From contig JAVYML010000003.1 of assembly GCA_038736355.1 (NCBI GenBank), positions 86,093 through 150,092 on the forward strand: a DNA stretch of 64,000 nucleotides. Direction: 5' to 3'. A program made the position numbers and the translations under genes. This document shows positions 36,516-44,164 of this stretch, in pieces. Positions within the stretch are counted from its first letter, which is position 1; the number at the start of each line of letters is the position of its first letter. This stretch comes from Candidatus Hadarchaeales archaeon (lineage in GTDB: Archaea > Hadarchaeota > Hadarchaeia > Hadarchaeales > WYZ-LMO6). A model generated the notes under the pieces. It saw nothing but the letters and a program-made list of their open reading frames with translations. It did not search any database and was not told the DNA's origin.

Positions 36516-37793
36516 ATGTCGGGATTCAAAGGGGGAGTCCATCCTAAGATTCAAAAGCTTACGGGTTACAAAAAAACCGAGGTTCTTCCGCTACCCCCTA
36601 GGGTAGTGATACCTTTGAGACAACACCTGGGTGCCCCCTGCGATCCTTTGGTAGAAAAGGGGGCCCAAGTAAAAACTGGGCAGAAGATAGGAGATTCCAC
36701 AGCACCCGTTTCCGCACCCGTTCACGCTTCGATTTCGGGTACCGTGGTGGAGCTTTCCCCTAAGAGACTCCCGACGGGTGAGAAAGTGCTCTCCGTGATA
36801 ATAGACTCGGATGGGAAGGATGAGTGGATCAAGATGCCCGCCTTGGACCCTGAGAAGTCTTCAAGGGAGGAGCTTCTTCAAAGGGTGAGGGAGGCAGGAA
36901 TAGTGGGAATGGGTGGGGCAGGTTTTCCCACCCATATCAAGCTCAATCCTCCCAAGAAAGTGGATACACTCTTGATTAATGGGGTGGAATGTGAACCTTA
37001 CATTACCGCCGATCATCGTCTGATGCTTGAGGAAGGTGAAAAGGTAGTGGAAGGGGCCAAGATCATGGCCAAGATCTTGGGTGTGGAGAGGATCCTCATA
37101 GCTATTGAGGACAACAAACCCGATGCCATAGAACACATGCAGAAGTTGAGCGAAGGGGTAGGTCGGGTGGTCAAGCTCAAGACCAAATATCCACAGGGGG
37201 ATGAGAGACATCTTTTGAAAGCCGTTTTGGGCAGAGAGGTACCGGCAGGAGGCTTACCTTTCGATGTGGGTGCAGTGGTTCAGAACGTTGGCACAGCTAA
37301 GGCCGTCTACGATGCCGTGAAACTGGGGATCCCATTGGTGGAAAGGATAGTTACGGTGACGGGAGAAGTGGCGGAGCCCAAGAACTTGAGGGTTAGAGTG
37401 GGGACTCCCTTCACCTATCTTTTGCAGCAATGCGGTGGGACGGTGGGAAAGGTGAGAAAAGTGGTGGCGGGCGGACCCATGATGGGATTTGCCGTTCATG
37501 AAGATGTTCCGGTGATCAAGACTACGGGCTGTGTGCTGGTGATGGGAGAAGTAAAAGAGGAAGAAGAAGGACCATGCATCCGGTGCGGGAGATGTATTGA
37601 AGCTTGTCCCATGAGCCTGATGCCCACCCATCTTGTAAAACTGGTAAGGGCGAAGGACTTCGAAGCCTGTTTACAATATAACCTCTTGAGTTGTGATGAG
37701 TGTGGATGTTGTGCTTATGTTTGTCCCTCCAAGATTCCCATCGTTCATGTGATAAGGGAGGGGAAGAAAGGAGTGAGGAGGTTGAGGAAGTGA
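36516..37793 (+). CDS. rnfC: Rnf complex subunit C
   Basis: The soluble electron-input subunit of the Rnf complex. The 425-residue protein has the biotinyl-like N-terminal domain (PVSAPVHASISGTVV), the NuoF-like nucleotide/FMN part with GMGGAGFPTHIKL and GVECEPYITADHRL, and two [4Fe-4S] motifs, CIRCGRCIEACP and CDECGCCAYVCP. In bacteria RnfC carries the NADH site; in Methanosarcina the partner differs, so the acceptor here is open. First gene of rnfCDGEAB. Confidence 0.96.
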   Translation: MSGFKGGVHPKIQKLTGYKKTEVLPLPPRVVIPLRQHLGAPCDPLVEKGAQVKTGQKIGDSTAPVSAPVHASISGTVVELSPKRLPTGEKVLSVIIDSDGKDEWIKMPALDPEKSSREELLQRVREAGIVGMGGAGFPTHIKLNPPKKVDTLLINGVECEPYITADHRLMLEEGEKVVEGAKIMAKILGVERILIAIEDNKPDAIEHMQKLSEGVGRVVKLKTKYPQGDERHLLKAVLGREVPAGGLPFDVGAVVQNVGTAKAVYDAVKLGIPLVERIVTVTGEVAEPKNLRVRVGTPFTYLLQQCGGTVGKVRKVVAGGPMMGFAVHEDVPVIKTTGCVLVMGEVKEEEEGPCIRCGRCIEACPMSLMPTHLVKLVRAKDFEACLQYNLLSCDECGCCAYVCPSKIPIVHVIREGKKGVRRLRK

Positions 37794-38731
37794 TACCTGA
37801 AACCAAACTGCAGGTCTCCCCGAGTCCCCACATTAAGGACAGGGTTTCTGTTAGAAGGATCATGTTCACGGTCGTGTTGGCCCTCATGCCTGCCACGCTT
37901 TGCGGAATCTATCTCTTTGGTTTGCATGCCCTGTTCGTGATCGTGGTTTCCGTGAGCTCGGCCGTGGTTTCCGAATTCTTGGGATACAGGGTGATGGGCA
38001 AGAAGTTCACGATGGACGGTAGTGCGGTGATCACGGGTCTGCTCCTCGCCCTCTGTCTTCCCCCCTCCGTTCCCCTCTGGATACCCGCCGTGGGTTCTTC
38101 CTTTGCCATCTTGGTGGGGAAGTGTGCCTTTGGTGGTTTGGGTCAGAACATCTTCAATCCAGCCCTCGTGGGAAGGGCCTTCCTCTCCCTCAGCTGGCCC
38201 GCCCTCATGACCACTTGGGTTTCCCCCTTCGAGGGCGTGAGCACGGCCACTCCGCTGGGAACTTGGAAGACGGGAGGAGGGTATGCCTCCTATTCCGATC
38301 TCTTCTTAGGGAGAGTGGCTGGATGCATAGGGGAGACTTCTGCCCTGGCCATCCTGATCGGAGGACTCCTTTTGATAGCCCTCAAGTACATAGATTGGAA
38401 AACTCCCGTATCCTACATAGGCACCGTTGGTTTGCTCATGTTCTTGCTCGGTCAGGATCCCCTCTTCCACATCTTGGCCGGGGGGCTTTTCTTGGGAGCC
38501 TTTTTCATGGCCACCGACTACGTTACCACCCCCCTGACGGGAAAGGGCAGAGTAATCTTTGGCTTTGGGGCTGGGCTCCTCGTGGTGGTGATAAGGATGT
38601 ACGGAGGCATGCCCGAGGGTGTCACCTATTCCATCCTCATCATGAACGCCTTCACTCCCCTGATAGATAGGTATACTAAACCCAGGGTTTACGGGACGGT
38701 GAGGAAAAGATGGTGGGAAAGGAAGAAGTGA
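37790..38731 (+). CDS. rnfD: Rnf complex subunit D (flavinylated membrane subunit)
   Basis: A 313-residue membrane subunit with about nine helices. The GTG at 37790 overlaps the rnfC stop as GTGA, and the protein then begins VIPETKLQVSPSPHI, the usual RnfD/NqrB start; the longer frame into rnfC is spurious. The FMN attachment segment reads GVSTATPLG; the second Thr is the likely acceptor, although the common form is S/T-G-A-T, so Ala replaces Gly. GLGQNIFNPALVGRAF is a strong family signature. Confidence 0.94.
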   Translation: MIPETKLQVSPSPHIKDRVSVRRIMFTVVLALMPATLCGIYLFGLHALFVIVVSVSSAVVSEFLGYRVMGKKFTMDGSAVITGLLLALCLPPSVPLWIPAVGSSFAILVGKCAFGGLGQNIFNPALVGRAFLSLSWPALMTTWVSPFEGVSTATPLGTWKTGGGYASYSDLFLGRVAGCIGETSALAILIGGLLLIALKYIDWKTPVSYIGTVGLLMFLLGQDPLFHILAGGLFLGAFFMATDYVTTPLTGKGRVIFGFGAGLLVVVIRMYGGMPEGVTYSILIMNAFTPLIDRYTKPRVYGTVRKRWWERKK

Positions 38732-39228
38732 AGCCGGTAGCGGTGTTGGTAATAACTTGCGTGGTATGGGGAGCCCTCTTGGGTCTCATTCACAGTGCCA
38801 CAGAAAAGAAGATAGAGGAAGCGGAGAGGTCAGAACTTTATCGTACCCTTTCAGAAATCTTTCCCAACGCTCAGTTCGAAGAAGAGGAGGGCCACTATCT
38901 CTGTTTGGAAAACGGAAAAGTGGTAGGATATGCCATCGTGGTGGAGGAAAGGGGATTCGGTGGAAAGATGGAGGTGCTCGTGGGGATTTCCGAGGAGGGA
39001 ACGGTGGCTGGGGTGAGAATACTTACCCACGGTGAAACTCCAGGTTTGGGATCCAGGGTGGCTGAGGAAGAATTTCTAGTTCAGTTCATAGGTAAGGATT
39101 TGGAAAAAATAGCCCTTAAGAGGGATGGGGGAGAAATAGAGGGAGTGACGGGAGCCACCATAAGCTCCAGGGCGGTGGTTAGGGCCGTGAGGAGCGGGTT
39201 GGAGAACCTCTTGGGAGTGGTGAGATGA
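38710..39228 (+). CDS. rnfG: Rnf complex subunit G (covalent FMN subunit)
   Basis: A 172-residue protein with one N-terminal membrane helix (residues 9-27) and an outer FMN-binding domain. The flavinylation motif is EGVTGATISSRAVV; FMN is joined to the Thr of GAT by ApbE, and an ApbE-containing protein is encoded at the end of this operon on the other strand. THGETPGLGSRV is the second conserved segment. The start overlaps rnfD by 22 bases and the stop overlaps rnfE (ATGA). Confidence 0.95.
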   Translation: MVGKEEVKPVAVLVITCVVWGALLGLIHSATEKKIEEAERSELYRTLSEIFPNAQFEEEEGHYLCLENGKVVGYAIVVEERGFGGKMEVLVGISEEGTVAGVRILTHGETPGLGSRVAEEEFLVQFIGKDLEKIALKRDGGEIEGVTGATISSRAVVRAVRSGLENLLGVVR

Positions 39229-39818
39229 AGGTCCAAGAATTCACGAAAGGGATCCTGAAGCGAAATCCCGTGCTGGGATTGGTCCTGGGTCTTTGTCCCG
39301 TTCTTGCCATTACTACGAAGGTGGAGAATGCCCTTGGCATGTCCTTGGCCTTCACCTTCGTGATAGTTCTTTCCAACCTTCTCATCTCTTCCCTCAAGAA
39401 GTTCATTCCCAGGGATGTGAGGATCCCTACCTTCATCGTGATCATAGCGAGTTTTGTAACCATCGTGGAAATGCTCATACACGGTTATTCCCCTCCTCTT
39501 TACGAACAACTGGGAATCTTTCTACCTCTCATCACCGTGAATTGTATTGTGCTCGGGAGGGCTGAGGCCTTTGCTTCCAAGCGCCCCGTTTCCGAAACCT
39601 TGCTGGACACCCTCGGTATGAGCGTGGGGTTCGCCCTTTCCATCATCGTCATTTCCTTTCTAAGGGAGTTCTTCGGAACGGGAAAGATAGTGGTTTTCGG
39701 TCATCAAATAATCCCTGGCCTCCTCTCCTCTCCTGCCGTGGGCATGATTTTGCCCCCAGGAGCTTTCTTGGTAATGGGTATCCTGTTGGCCGTCATGAAG
39801 AAGGCGAAGGTGATGTGA
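39225..39818 (+). CDS. rnfE: Rnf complex subunit E
   Basis: A 197-residue membrane subunit with six helices, paralogous to RnfA and oriented the opposite way in the membrane. It has NPVLGLVLGLCPVLA near the N terminus, RIPTFIVIIASFVTIVEM, and PLITVNCIVLGRAEAFASK in the loop that holds one of the cysteines of the intramembrane iron centre. Start coupled to rnfG, one base before rnfA. Confidence 0.95.
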   Translation: MKVQEFTKGILKRNPVLGLVLGLCPVLAITTKVENALGMSLAFTFVIVLSNLLISSLKKFIPRDVRIPTFIVIIASFVTIVEMLIHGYSPPLYEQLGIFLPLITVNCIVLGRAEAFASKRPVSETLLDTLGMSVGFALSIIVISFLREFFGTGKIVVFGHQIIPGLLSSPAVGMILPPGAFLVMGILLAVMKKAKVM

Positions 39819-39819
39819 A

Positions 39820-40401
39820 ATGGAAAACCTCTTGGGAATAGTCATAGCGGCCATCTTCATCAACAACATCGTTCTGACGAAGTTCCTCGGTCTCTGCTCT
39901 TTCTTCGGTATCTCCACTAGGATCAGGACTTCGGTAATGATGGGTATAGCCGTGACCTTCGTGGCCACATGTTCCTCCCTCATCACCTGGTTAATCCACA
40001 GGTACTTCCTCATGCCCTTCCACATAGAGTACATGAGGATCGTGGCTTTCATTCTGGTGATAGCTTCCTTTGTCCAGTTGGTGGAGATTACCATCAGAAG
40101 GTTCTCTCCTCCTCTCTACAGAGCTTTCGGGATCTATTTACCCCTCATCACGGTGAATTGTGCCATCCTCGGCGTGACCTTGATCAACGTGGATGTGGAA
40201 AGGTATTCCTTCGTGGCTTCGGTGGTTAACGGTTTCGCCACCGGTCTCGGCTATACCTTGGCCATCCTCATGATGTCGGGAATAAGGGAGAGATTGGAGA
40301 TTTCCGAAGTTCCCTCTTCCTTCCGCGGTCTTCCCATAGCTTTCATTACAGCTGCCCTTTTGGCCCTGGCTTTCCAGGGCTTCAGTGGGATGGTGGAGTG
40401 A
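39820..40401 (+). CDS. rnfA: Rnf complex subunit A
   Basis: A 193-residue membrane subunit with six helices. It shows NNIVLTKFLGLCSFFGIST, with the conserved cysteine, and a second half with PLITVNCAILGVTLINVD, the matching cysteine. RnfA and RnfE together form the ion path and share a [2Fe-2S] centre in structures of the complex. The stop abuts the rnfB start. Confidence 0.96.
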   Translation: MENLLGIVIAAIFINNIVLTKFLGLCSFFGISTRIRTSVMMGIAVTFVATCSSLITWLIHRYFLMPFHIEYMRIVAFILVIASFVQLVEITIRRFSPPLYRAFGIYLPLITVNCAILGVTLINVDVERYSFVASVVNGFATGLGYTLAILMMSGIRERLEISEVPSSFRGLPIAFITAALLALAFQGFSGMVE

Positions 40402-41214
40402 ATGATAGAGGAGATGGGAATCATGGGGATCGTGGGCGCCTCCTTCGCCATCATGCTGGTGGTAGCCGCTAGGAAGATGGCCGTGAAGATAGACGAAAGG
40501 ATTGAGAAGATCAGGGAAAAACTTCCGGGAGCATCCTGTGGGGCCTGTGGACTCAAGGGAGGTTGTGATGCCCTAGCAGAGGAACTGGTGAAGGATCCCT
40601 CCCTTCTCGGCAAGTGCAGGTTGGTTGGCCCTGAAGAGAAGAGGGAAATAGGGAAGATTTTGGGAATAGAGGTGAAGGAGGAGGAAGAAAAGAAGCTGCC
40701 ACGGGTAAGGTGTACGGGAGAATCCAAGATCCTCTTTGAGGCCGCAGGTGAGAGGACTTGTTCAGCCTTTTCGGACCTGGCTGGGGGTCCCCTGGCCTGT
40801 CCTTACGGATGTTTAGGGATGGGTGATTGTGTGAGGGCCTGTCCCTTCGATGCTTTGAGGATAGAAAATGGGCTTCCCGTGGTGGACGAAGAGAGATGTA
40901 GGGGGTGCGGGCTCTGTGAACAAGCCTGTCCGAGGGGGGTGATAAAACTTCTACCCAAAGAAACCAAGGTCCTCCTCCTCTGTAATTCTCCAGCTTCAGG
41001 GAAAGAGGTGAATGCTTCATGTGCCAGCGGTTGTATCAAATGCAGGATATGCGAAAAGTCCTGTCCCGTTCAGGCCATAAAACTCGATCCTCTTCCCATC
41101 ATCGATTCTTCCCTATGTAACGTCTGTGGAACCTGTGTGGAGAAATGCCCGCGAAAGGTGCTGAAACTTGGCGTGGCTCCACTCGCTTCGACCCCACCCA
41201 TGCCTTCAGGTTAG
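40402..41214 (+). CDS. rnfB: Rnf complex subunit B (polyferredoxin)
   Basis: A 270-residue ferredoxin-accepting subunit: N-terminal membrane helix, then the CGACGLKGGCDALAEEL cluster motif, then four ferredoxin-type motifs (GDCVRACP with cysteines upstream, CRGCGLCEQACP, CIKCRICEKSCP, CNVCGTCVEKCP). More clusters than the shortest bacterial forms, as in other anaerobes. Last gene of the operon; its 3' end overlaps the convergent flippase-ApbE gene by 9 bases. Confidence 0.95.
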   Translation: MIEEMGIMGIVGASFAIMLVVAARKMAVKIDERIEKIREKLPGASCGACGLKGGCDALAEELVKDPSLLGKCRLVGPEEKREIGKILGIEVKEEEEKKLPRVRCTGESKILFEAAGERTCSAFSDLAGGPLACPYGCLGMGDCVRACPFDALRIENGLPVVDEERCRGCGLCEQACPRGVIKLLPKETKVLLLCNSPASGKEVNASCASGCIKCRICEKSCPVQAIKLDPLPIIDSSLCNVCGTCVEKCPRKVLKLGVAPLASTPPMPSG

Positions 41215-43326
41215 TTCCCATATCTTGGGAAGATCCCAAGAAGCAGAGTAGGTGATTTTGCCATTTGAACCCACCAGCATGGCTTTCACCGTTCTTCCGG
41301 TGGAGGAAAGGTAATCTGCCAGGGCTCTTCCTTTCTCGGGTCCCAGCACGAAGAGGGTTGTGCTCAGGGCGTCGGCTTCCATGCAATTCTCCGCTATCAC
41401 CGTGACGCTCATGCATTCCGTTGCCGGCTCCCCCGTCTTTGGATCCAAGATATGGTGGATCCTTCTGGAGCCGAGGAAGAAGAATCTCCTGTAATCTCCG
41501 GAAGTAGCGATGGAGAAGTTCTCCAATTCCAGTGCCAGCATGATTTCCTCCTTTCTCGGGTGCTGTATTCCTATTTTCCAAACCTTTCCGAATCCCCTCA
41601 TCTCCCCCCCTACATTCACCAGGCCTGCCTTCACTCCCGCATCCTTTAGGATCTGATAGGCCCTATCCACGGCATATCCCTTTGCTATTCCACCCAGCGT
41701 TACTTCCATTCCCTCTTTTAGGAACCTAGCCCTACCATTTTCCACTTCCAAGCTCTCCCATCCCACTCTTTCCAGGACTTTTGAAAGGAGGTAGGAAGAA
41801 GGAAGTTTCCCCTTTTCTTTCACCTCTTTCATCCAAAAGTCCACGAGTGGTTTTACCGTGATGTCGAAGGCCCCTCCTGAGAGTTCGGAATACTGGAGGG
41901 AAGAGCGCAAGAGGAAAAGGGTCTCCTCCGAGAGCTCCACCCAGGAGGTCCCGCTTCGGTTCAGGGAGTAGATCTCGGTTCCATCTTTTTCCGCCGACAT
42001 CAGGCTTTCCACCCTTTTTATTTCCCTGTAGGCCTTTTCCACAGCTTCCTTTGCCCTGTTTCGGTTTTCGTCCACCACCTGGATTTCCACGAAGGTATCC
42101 ATAGCCAGACCCCTTCCTATCACCTTCTCTCCCCTGACTTCGATGGTTAGGGGATGTGCCGCCATGGAGCTGAGGAGGAGGGCGGTGAGGGCGATCATTC
42201 CCAGAAAGGCACCAGCCAGTTTTCTGTCTTCTTCTTCCAGTCTGGGAAGGAAGAAAAGAGAGGAGGAGAGGACGAGCTGGGAGAGGAGAAAGCCATACGC
42301 CATTCCTCCCACTCCGAACTTTTTTCCCAACACCACAATCCCCGCTAAGCCAACGGCTAAGGAAGAAAAATAGGAAAGGAGAACGGATGAGGTTTCTTGT
42401 CTGGAGTAAAGGCGGGAAAGTTCGATTTGGGTAAACGTAACTAGGGGAAGGGAAAAACTCATCACGCGCAGGACTATCGCACCCTTTTCAAAGGAAGGGA
42501 AAAGGGAGGAAAGGAACAAGGAAAGGGAAAGGGCGGAGAGGAGCAGGAGAGGAGAGGCTAGGAGGGCCTTCTTTTCGGTTTCCCCCACTTTTCTTCCAGA
42601 TGCCCTTTCCGGGAGGAGATAGAAGAAAAAGATCTGGGGGAAGGAAGCGAAGAGGAGGAAGAACCTGTTTCCAAACTGGTACATGGCTAGTTCCTCTTTC
42701 CCGAAGAGTGGTCCTATGACCACCTTGTCTAGGAGGTTGAAGGAGGCCATCCCGATATCCACCAACCAGAGACCGAGCAGGAAGGTGGGAGGGGGGAAGG
42801 AAAACTTGCCTTCCTTCAGCTTGAGGAGAGGGAGAGAGAAGGGTAGGTAGGAGAGGGAAAGTCCCAACAGGAGCCCCTTCACTTCCCCCAACCTTAAGTA
42901 GAGGAGAAAGGGTAGGAGGAGGGTAAGGCTCCTGGCCCCTATCCAGAGCAGGAGATAACGGGAATAGGAGCGTTTGGAAAGCTCGAAATGAAAGCTCAGA
43001 GAAAAAAGGGAGAAGGAAAGGAGGAGAAGACCCGTCCATGGGTCCAGCAGGAGGGAGAGAAGAACGGCGATGGAAAGGCTGGGGAGGAGCCCCAGCAGTA
43101 GGCAACCCTTCAGGACCCCTTCCCCCCCTTTGGAATAAAGGGCTAGGGATGCCTTGCCAACCCCGAGGAGAGAGATTCCAGAAAGGAGCATGGCTAAAGA
43201 AACTCTCCAAGCTACTTCCCCGTATGCGAGGGGATGGAGGAGGAAGGCCAAAAGGACCCAGAAAAAAAAGCCTGAGAGGGTAGCGAAAACCTGTGCCATC
43301 GCCACTTGGAACACGCCGGTTTCCAT
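41206..43326 (-). CDS. MATE/Wzx-like flippase fused to ApbE flavin transferase
   Basis: One uninterrupted 706-residue frame from the ATG at 43326 (a TTG six codons earlier is possible). Residues 1-360 form about 12 membrane helices of the polysaccharide-flippase type, with DKVVIGPLFGKEELAMYQFG near 200-219. A 13th helix at about 370-389 leads into a complete ApbE domain (about 395-706): TLGGIAKGYAVDRAY, NVGGEMRGFG, RRIHHILDPKTGEPA, ADALSTTLFVLGPEKG. Twelve plus one helices would put ApbE outside, where RnfG and RnfD carry FMN. It faces the rnf operon tail to tail. No stop or frameshift separates the two parts. Confidence 0.85.
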   Translation of the reverse strand: METGVFQVAMAQVFATLSGFFFWVLLAFLLHPLAYGEVAWRVSLAMLLSGISLLGVGKASLALYSKGGEGVLKGCLLLGLLPSLSIAVLLSLLLDPWTGLLLLSFSLFSLSFHFELSKRSYSRYLLLWIGARSLTLLLPFLLYLRLGEVKGLLLGLSLSYLPFSLPLLKLKEGKFSFPPPTFLLGLWLVDIGMASFNLLDKVVIGPLFGKEELAMYQFGNRFFLLFASFPQIFFFYLLPERASGRKVGETEKKALLASPLLLLSALSLSLFLSSLFPSFEKGAIVLRVMSFSLPLVTFTQIELSRLYSRQETSSVLLSYFSSLAVGLAGIVVLGKKFGVGGMAYGFLLSQLVLSSSLFFLPRLEEEDRKLAGAFLGMIALTALLLSSMAAHPLTIEVRGEKVIGRGLAMDTFVEIQVVDENRNRAKEAVEKAYREIKRVESLMSAEKDGTEIYSLNRSGTSWVELSEETLFLLRSSLQYSELSGGAFDITVKPLVDFWMKEVKEKGKLPSSYLLSKVLERVGWESLEVENGRARFLKEGMEVTLGGIAKGYAVDRAYQILKDAGVKAGLVNVGGEMRGFGKVWKIGIQHPRKEEIMLALELENFSIATSGDYRRFFFLGSRRIHHILDPKTGEPATECMSVTVIAENCMEADALSTTLFVLGPEKGRALADYLSSTGRTVKAMLVGSNGKITYSASWDLPKIWELT

Positions 43327-43347
43327 CTCAGTCCCTTTTTCCAACCG

Positions 43348-43357
43348 CTTATATACT
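43348..43357 (+). promoter_or_regulatory. TATA box of the MBL-fold gene
   Basis: CTTATATACT, centred at about 43352, lies 24-27 bases before the in-frame GTG at 43376 and TTG at 43379. The position supports a leaderless transcript and decides the start codon among several candidates. It lies just 22 bases from the divergent flippase-ApbE start. Confidence 0.45.
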
Positions 43358-43375
43358 ATCCTGCAGAGTCTCTTT

Positions 43376-44164
43376 GTGTTGGTTCCTTCTTCCCATGGGG
43401 ATGTGAAGGTGGTGAAGAGTGGGGTGGAGTTCTCGGGTAGGGTGCCCTATTGGACGCACTTTTACCTCTACAAAGACCTGATCGTGGATACCGGGTGTTC
43501 GCATACGGCAGTGGAGGTGAGGGAGTTCTTGGGTGAAAGGAAGGGGGTGGTTTTGCTCACCCACCATCATGAGGACCATGTAGGGGGAGCGATAGCCCTT
43601 CAGGGAAGGCTCAAAATCTTTGCCCCCCTTAAATCCCTCCCGCTACTCGAGCACCCACCGGAGCTCCCAGATTACAGGAAGCTGGTGTGGGGCCAACCCC
43701 AACCTCTCAAAGCCCATCCCCTTCCTTCTTCCCTTTGCTTCGGTGGTTTGGAGGTGGAGGTTTTCGAGACTCCGGGGCATACCTTTGATCACGTTTCCTT
43801 CTTGGTGGATGGTAAGCTTTTTGCAGGTGACCTCGTGGTGGCGCCTGGACAGATGGTATGTATGAGACAAGAGGAGCTAAGGGATACGATGATTTCACTA
43901 CGAAAAATCTTGAAGCTCGATTTCGAGTACGCCTATACGGGTGTGGGTGTTTTTTCCAAGGAAGAAGTGAGGGCCTATCTAGAGTATCTGGGAGGGTTGA
44001 GGAAGAAGGTGGAAGAGCTCCACCGAAAGGGGAAAAGTCCGAGAGATATAGTGGAAGAAGTCTTTCCCCATCCACCCGAAATAGTTCAGTTAATGGAAGT
44101 AGTGAGCGACGGGGAGTGGAGCAGGGAAAACATGGTGAGATCTCTGCTCGGCCTTCCGCGCTGA
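43376..44164 (+). CDS. MBL-fold metallohydrolase
   Basis: A beta-lactamase-fold metal hydrolase of about 262 residues. The metal ligands are in THHHEDHVGG, ETPGHTFDHVSF and LFAGDLVV. The last 70 residues form a helical tail (YLGGLRKKVEELHRKGKS) like that of the LACTB2/glyoxalase-II-like archaeal group. Substrate unknown. The GTG at 43376 fits the TATA box; a GTG at 43403 would give a protein starting VKVVKSGVEFSG and is almost as good. The frame further upstream lies in the neighbour gene and is rejected. Confidence 0.87.
   Translation: MLVPSSHGDVKVVKSGVEFSGRVPYWTHFYLYKDLIVDTGCSHTAVEVREFLGERKGVVLLTHHHEDHVGGAIALQGRLKIFAPLKSLPLLEHPPELPDYRKLVWGQPQPLKAHPLPSSLCFGGLEVEVFETPGHTFDHVSFLVDGKLFAGDLVVAPGQMVCMRQEELRDTMISLRKILKLDFEYAYTGVGVFSKEEVRAYLEYLGGLRKKVEELHRKGKSPRDIVEEVFPHPPEIVQLMEVVSDGEWSRENMVRSLLGLPR

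Follow-up and report, generated by a model that had tools for sequence, protein, structure and literature searches.

A flippase-like protein fused to ApbE beside an archaeal rnf operon: a candidate FAD exporter joined to its own flavin transferase

The locus and the fusion gene

The window, the whole stretch of 64,000 nucleotides analysed here, contains an rnf operon with the gene order rnfC-D-G-E-A-B on the plus strand (positions 36516-41214). The genes rnfC (36516..37793), rnfE (39225..39818) and rnfA (39820..40401) were named from their sequences and from the conserved order in relatives. rnfD (37700..38731; PF03116, 7.1e-121), whose true start is probably at about 37790, encodes the motif STATP (38240-38254), and rnfG (38710..39228) encodes the motif TGAT (39148-39159); both appear to be of the type usually recognized by ApbE. 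The operon ends with rnfB (40402..41214).

On the minus strand, an open reading frame of 706 codons (41206..43326, counted from the ATG at 43326) runs towards the operon. An alternative in-frame TTG start at 43344 would extend the protein to 712 residues. The two transcription units are arranged tail-to-tail, with the 3’ ends of rnfB and of the 706-codon gene overlapping by 9 bases, so the first-pass annotation was right to describe the gene as facing the rnf operon. It had also described a single frame joining about 12 membrane helices to a full ApbE domain via a 13th helix, and the frame itself, the PF02424 match, the hydropathy and the structural models all bear this out.

ApbE attaches FMN to RnfG and RnfD. 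The enzyme acts outside the cell, FAD is made inside, and RnfG works on the outer face of the membrane. The ApbE FAD:protein FMN transferase domain of the fusion (residues 409-672; 41311..42102, minus strand) covers positions 1-257 of the 266 in the PF02424 profile (E=1.9e-84; 283.8 bits against a cut-off of 25.6). It aligns with solved FMN transferases, among them TM1553 (1vrm, 2.8e-46), 7esa (1.4e-36) and 4xgw, and comparison with these three structures and with the orthologues shows that the motif blocks GGIAKGYAVDR, HHILDPKTGEP and ADALST are intact. A genome search found the fusion to be the sole ApbE of the source genome, and RnfG and RnfD would be its targets. The fusion thus shares with known ApbE proteins (PF02424; TM1553, FmnB) the full domain with its motif blocks, the adjoining rnf genes and the (S/T)xAT-type motifs in the substrates. 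In contrast to these lipoproteins or single-helix anchored enzymes, it carries a predicted 12-helix transporter and a further helix in front of the catalytic domain.

Residues 1-388 (42163..43326, minus strand) are hydrophobic and make up the membrane half, a predicted 12-helix flippase of the polysaccharide transport (PST)/Wzx type within the MOP superfamily, followed by helix 13 (residues about 369-388; 42163..42222, minus strand), which is predicted to lead out to the external side of the membrane. Two AlphaFold models and the hydropathy averaged over seven orthologues both give twelve helices plus the thirteenth preceding ApbE, the helix limits being taken from low-confidence models. A full-length AlphaFold model built with three sequences was poor (pLDDT 52, pTM 0.37). 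The loops predicted to lie inside, with their flanking residues, consist of lysine and arginine to 18.2% in the seven sequences, against 4.4% outside, which predicts that the N-terminus is located inside and the ApbE domain outside the cell.

Divergent from the fusion gene lies a metallo-beta-lactamase-like gene (43154-44164; named by eye), and beyond it come MarC-like and ion-channel-like genes. No such metallo-beta-lactamase-like gene was seen beside the fusion in other genera.

Distribution of the fusion and its link to Rnf

The fused architecture recurs in other genomes, as a wider search showed: it is present in 6 of the 28 genomes of the archaeal phylum and in 2 of 188 Synergistota (G061, LVBO01; and G103). 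Within the same archaeal order, G003, G005, G012 and G023 have further copies, as does G001, where a contig end splits the gene; identities are 41-80% over these and the Synergistota copies. At E<=1e-70, the 394 archaea and 392 G103 relatives searched yielded no further fusion, the other matches being stand-alone ApbEs, and a search of viral contigs returned no relative. Across the junction (residues 356-416), the reading frame is open and almost without gaps in six homologues from other assemblies, with no stop between residues 360 and 400. Within the fusion clade, the two halves never occur as separate genes. A single in-frame TGA interrupts the membrane half of the G012 orthologue (L018:3594-5747, minus strand); the gene may be broken, or the assembly wrong at this point.

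RnfD is encoded in 8 of the 28 genomes of the phylum, and the fusion occurs in six of these and in none of the remaining 20 (P = 7e-5, with relatedness ignored). The two RnfD-containing genomes without the full fusion are G002, which is in 310 contigs, and G004, where all that is left of the fusion is a remnant covering its first 40-odd residues, away from rnf (L012:1458-1662). With RnfD but no ApbE, G004 may have an unflavinylated Rnf after decay of the gene, or its genome may be incomplete. None of the 28 genomes contains a stand-alone ApbE above the Pfam cut-off; the sub-threshold matches in other genomes are weak and cover only part of the profile.

The tail-to-tail arrangement of the fusion and rnf is found in the window, G003, G012 and G005, and also in G023, whose contig carries a portion of the operon. 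The G001 assembly has rnf at the end of one contig and the fusion at the end of another. The fusion of G103 lies downstream of the rnf operon on the same strand, and the Synergistales contig carrying the fusion of G061 is too short to show rnf, with an RnfD present on another contig.

In a tree of ApbE sequences, all seven fusions form one clade (support 100/100), in which the Synergistota pair is nested among the archaeal copies (98/86). This topology indicates that the fusion arose once and was probably transferred once, from archaea into bacteria. The RnfD of G103 is about equally distant from the archaeal copies (44-49% identity) and from that of G061 (45%), which is a different version, encoded on contig L142. 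In G061 (L074), the fusion directly follows a C_GCAxxG-type gene, and in G103 (L120) the rnf operon lies between the two.

Identity and conservation of the membrane half

The window protein alone has no Pfam match in its membrane half, and three orthologues (L015, L019 and L120) pass the threshold of PF13440 (Polysacc_synt_3; 26.8-31.1 against 23). A fusion-derived profile aligned over 364 columns with three stand-alone archaeal flippases (E 3.7e-48), and a profile combining fusions and stand-alone proteins matched RfbX of E. coli along 353 columns (P 1.4e-4, probability 52%). The same profile gave nothing with the MATE exporter YeeO or with two control membrane proteins (hhalign to YeeO, 0.1-0.2%). 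Neither the window protein nor its orthologues match a MATE family in Pfam, and a search of the membrane-half profile against PDB chains yielded no sequence match. For a membrane-only model of low confidence (pTM 0.61, mean pLDDT 61), the top 33 Foldseek matches all belong to the MOP superfamily (TM 0.34-0.47), the best being MurJ, NorM/MATE and WzxE. The profile evidence places the membrane half in the Wzx/PST branch of the superfamily. Of the first-pass designation ‘MATE/Wzx-type’, the Wzx/PST part holds, given the PF13440 matches of the orthologues, and MATE membership is rejected on the Pfam and YeeO results.

To our knowledge, the known substrates of the Wzx/PST branch are lipid-linked glycans. 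With members of this branch (PF13440, PF01943; RfbX, WzxE), the fusion shares a full-length profile match and core residues, and its twelve predicted helices may adopt the same MOP fold. It differs from them in the addition of helix 13 and ApbE, in being linked to rnf rather than to glycan genes, and in the fusion-specific residues R221, W40, W128 and H31-P32. No other flippase of this subfamily was found in the source genome or in its Rnf-lacking relatives.

The first-pass annotation proposed that the membrane half either exports a flavin or FAD, or is a reused anchor. As an anchor, it would no longer transport but keep ApbE on the membrane and perhaps dock it to Rnf, with FAD coming from another exporter. 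We regard this as rather unlikely. It is favoured by the fact that ApbE ordinarily requires just a membrane or extracytosolic location (PMC12052999), and by the faster change of the membrane half over long distances (35-47% identity, versus 53-61% for ApbE). However, twelve helices are well beyond the need of an anchor, and the other ApbEs that we inspected, all stand-alone, have a lipobox-like N-terminal segment or a single N-terminal helix. A comparison of two congeneric genomes, moreover, gave a dN/dS of 0.156 over the whole membrane half (0.145 in the helices) and of 0.141 over the sequenced portion of ApbE, at dS of about 0.8-1.1; the membrane half is under the same strong purifying selection as the ApbE half. 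The lengths of the orthologues also show no decay, apart from the in-frame stop in G012 and the remnant in G004.

Comparison of eight fusions with 11 stand-alone flippases revealed two sets of invariant residues. G36, G55, L116, Y121, D200, K201, Y216, G244, P277 and G341 are common to the fusions and to all or nearly all of the stand-alone proteins, with D200-K201, Y216 and the glycines kept in 11 of 11. Q12, H31-P32, W40, W128, R221, L225, F235 and P361 are invariant in the fusions only; position 221 is arginine in the fusions and glutamine in all 11 stand-alone proteins. Because the sequences are few and related, these fusion-specific invariants partly reflect shared descent. By homology, the conserved positions appear to fall in helices 1, 2, 5, 7 and 8. 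In MurJ, helices 1, 2, 7 and 8 line the cavity; the models of the fusion are too weak to place the conserved residues in a cavity. Retention of the family core together with a change in a small set of polar and aromatic residues is expected of a change in substrate, whereas an anchor would predict decay. The matched selection, the kept core and the fusion-specific invariants therefore favour a re-specialized transporter over a passive anchor.

A candidate FAD supply for Rnf flavinylation

We propose that a Wzx/PST-type MOP flippase that once acted on lipid-linked glycans was re-specialized for a flavin nucleotide, FAD being the most likely one. The membrane half would carry cytosolic FAD to the outer face, helix 13 would tether the ApbE domain at the exit side of the same chain, and this domain would use the delivered FAD to attach FMN to RnfG and RnfD. 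That the protein is a FAD or flavin exporter feeding its own ApbE, a self-supplying transferase dedicated to Rnf, seems to us slightly more probable than the contrary. For the full scenario, in which a polysaccharide-type flippase became a FAD exporter, so that export, cleavage and protein modification are combined in one Rnf-dedicated polypeptide that passed from archaea to bacteria, we put the chances at even. Of the two first-pass options, export is favoured by the matched selection, the kept flippase core, the new invariants, the absence of separate genes and the restriction of the fusion, within the phylum, to genomes with Rnf. Its status as sole ApbE of the genome, its place beside rnf, its single origin, the absence of a second flippase of the subfamily and the precedents of Bfe, YeeO and EetB also speak for the proposal. 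The membrane half presumably still transports; FAD as the substrate is suggested by analogy with known FAD exporters, and its release may be directed to the tethered ApbE domain. The word ‘channel’, used in the first-pass annotation, is probably wrong, since the relatives are alternating-access flippases.

Several points speak against export: the closest characterized relatives move lipid-linked glycans and not nucleotides, the known flavin exporters of the MOP superfamily belong to the MATE branch (YeeO having no detectable relation), the membrane half diverges faster than ApbE at long range, and the fusion-specific invariants come from few, related sequences. In a further reading, a lipid-linked glycan or some other substrate is still flipped by the membrane half, whose location or expression is simply tied to ApbE and Rnf by the fusion. 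The nearest stand-alone relatives are of the glycan type, two of them in glycan gene clusters (neighbours read by eye), and MurJ and WzxE are among the fold neighbours of the low-confidence model. Nevertheless, rnf rather than glycan genes lies beside the fusion in all readable loci but one short Synergistales contig, the fusion is absent from Rnf-lacking relatives, and the candidate substrate-site residues differ from those of the glycan-type group; we consider this reading improbable. An artefact, in which assembly or gene calling joined two neighbouring genes, is hardly credible and was rejected: the window rests on a single assembly, but the same almost gap-free junction is conserved across other archaeal and bacterial assemblies at 41-80% identity.

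The proposed export of FAD to a tethered ApbE bears on a known problem. How Vibrio ApbE is supplied with FAD has been described as an open issue, for which the MATE exporters Bfe and YeeO are candidates (PMC5655446). The Listeria enzyme receives its FAD from an ECF exporter with EetB, eetB genes are found near apbE and in many cases near rnf, and targeted delivery of FAD to ApbE was named as a question for the future (PMC9973259). Bfe and YeeO belong to the same MOP superfamily and would do the same job as the fusion, FAD export, but they represent another branch (YeeO without detectable sequence relation) and are encoded by separate genes. EetB-FmnA likewise exports FAD for an outside ApbE, but it is an unrelated, ATP-driven multi-subunit transporter with partners encoded by separate genes. 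The first-pass suggestion of a new type of system therefore stands in part: the covalent fusion is new, as would be the use of a flippase of this branch, whereas FAD export for ApbE is already known.

We found no report of an ApbE-flippase/Wzx architecture in the open-licence papers searched, and the surveys and reviews consulted report no fusion of ApbE to a transporter (PMC8238504; PMC11334425; PMC12052999). The known ApbE fusion is that to fumarate reductase in trypanosomatids (PMC12052999). There, ApbE is likewise joined to a functional partner, but that partner is the intracellular target flavoprotein, and here it is a putative supplier. If our proposal is correct, a third kind of transporter solves the supply of FAD and is bound to the enzyme that it serves, which would show how ApbE-type enzymes obtain their substrate. 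The Wzx/PST branch would also gain a new class of substrate, and stand-alone FAD exporters of this kind could be sought by their sequence signature. With the exporter candidate and the transferase in one protein, the question of FAD supply can be put to a direct test, using a single gene and RnfG as the single target.

In the same operon as the fusion of G103, RnfD and RnfG share one frame of 579 residues (L120:4333-6072; PF03116 and PF04205). This frame could be a real fusion of both expected flavin-bearing subunits, or the product of a frameshift.
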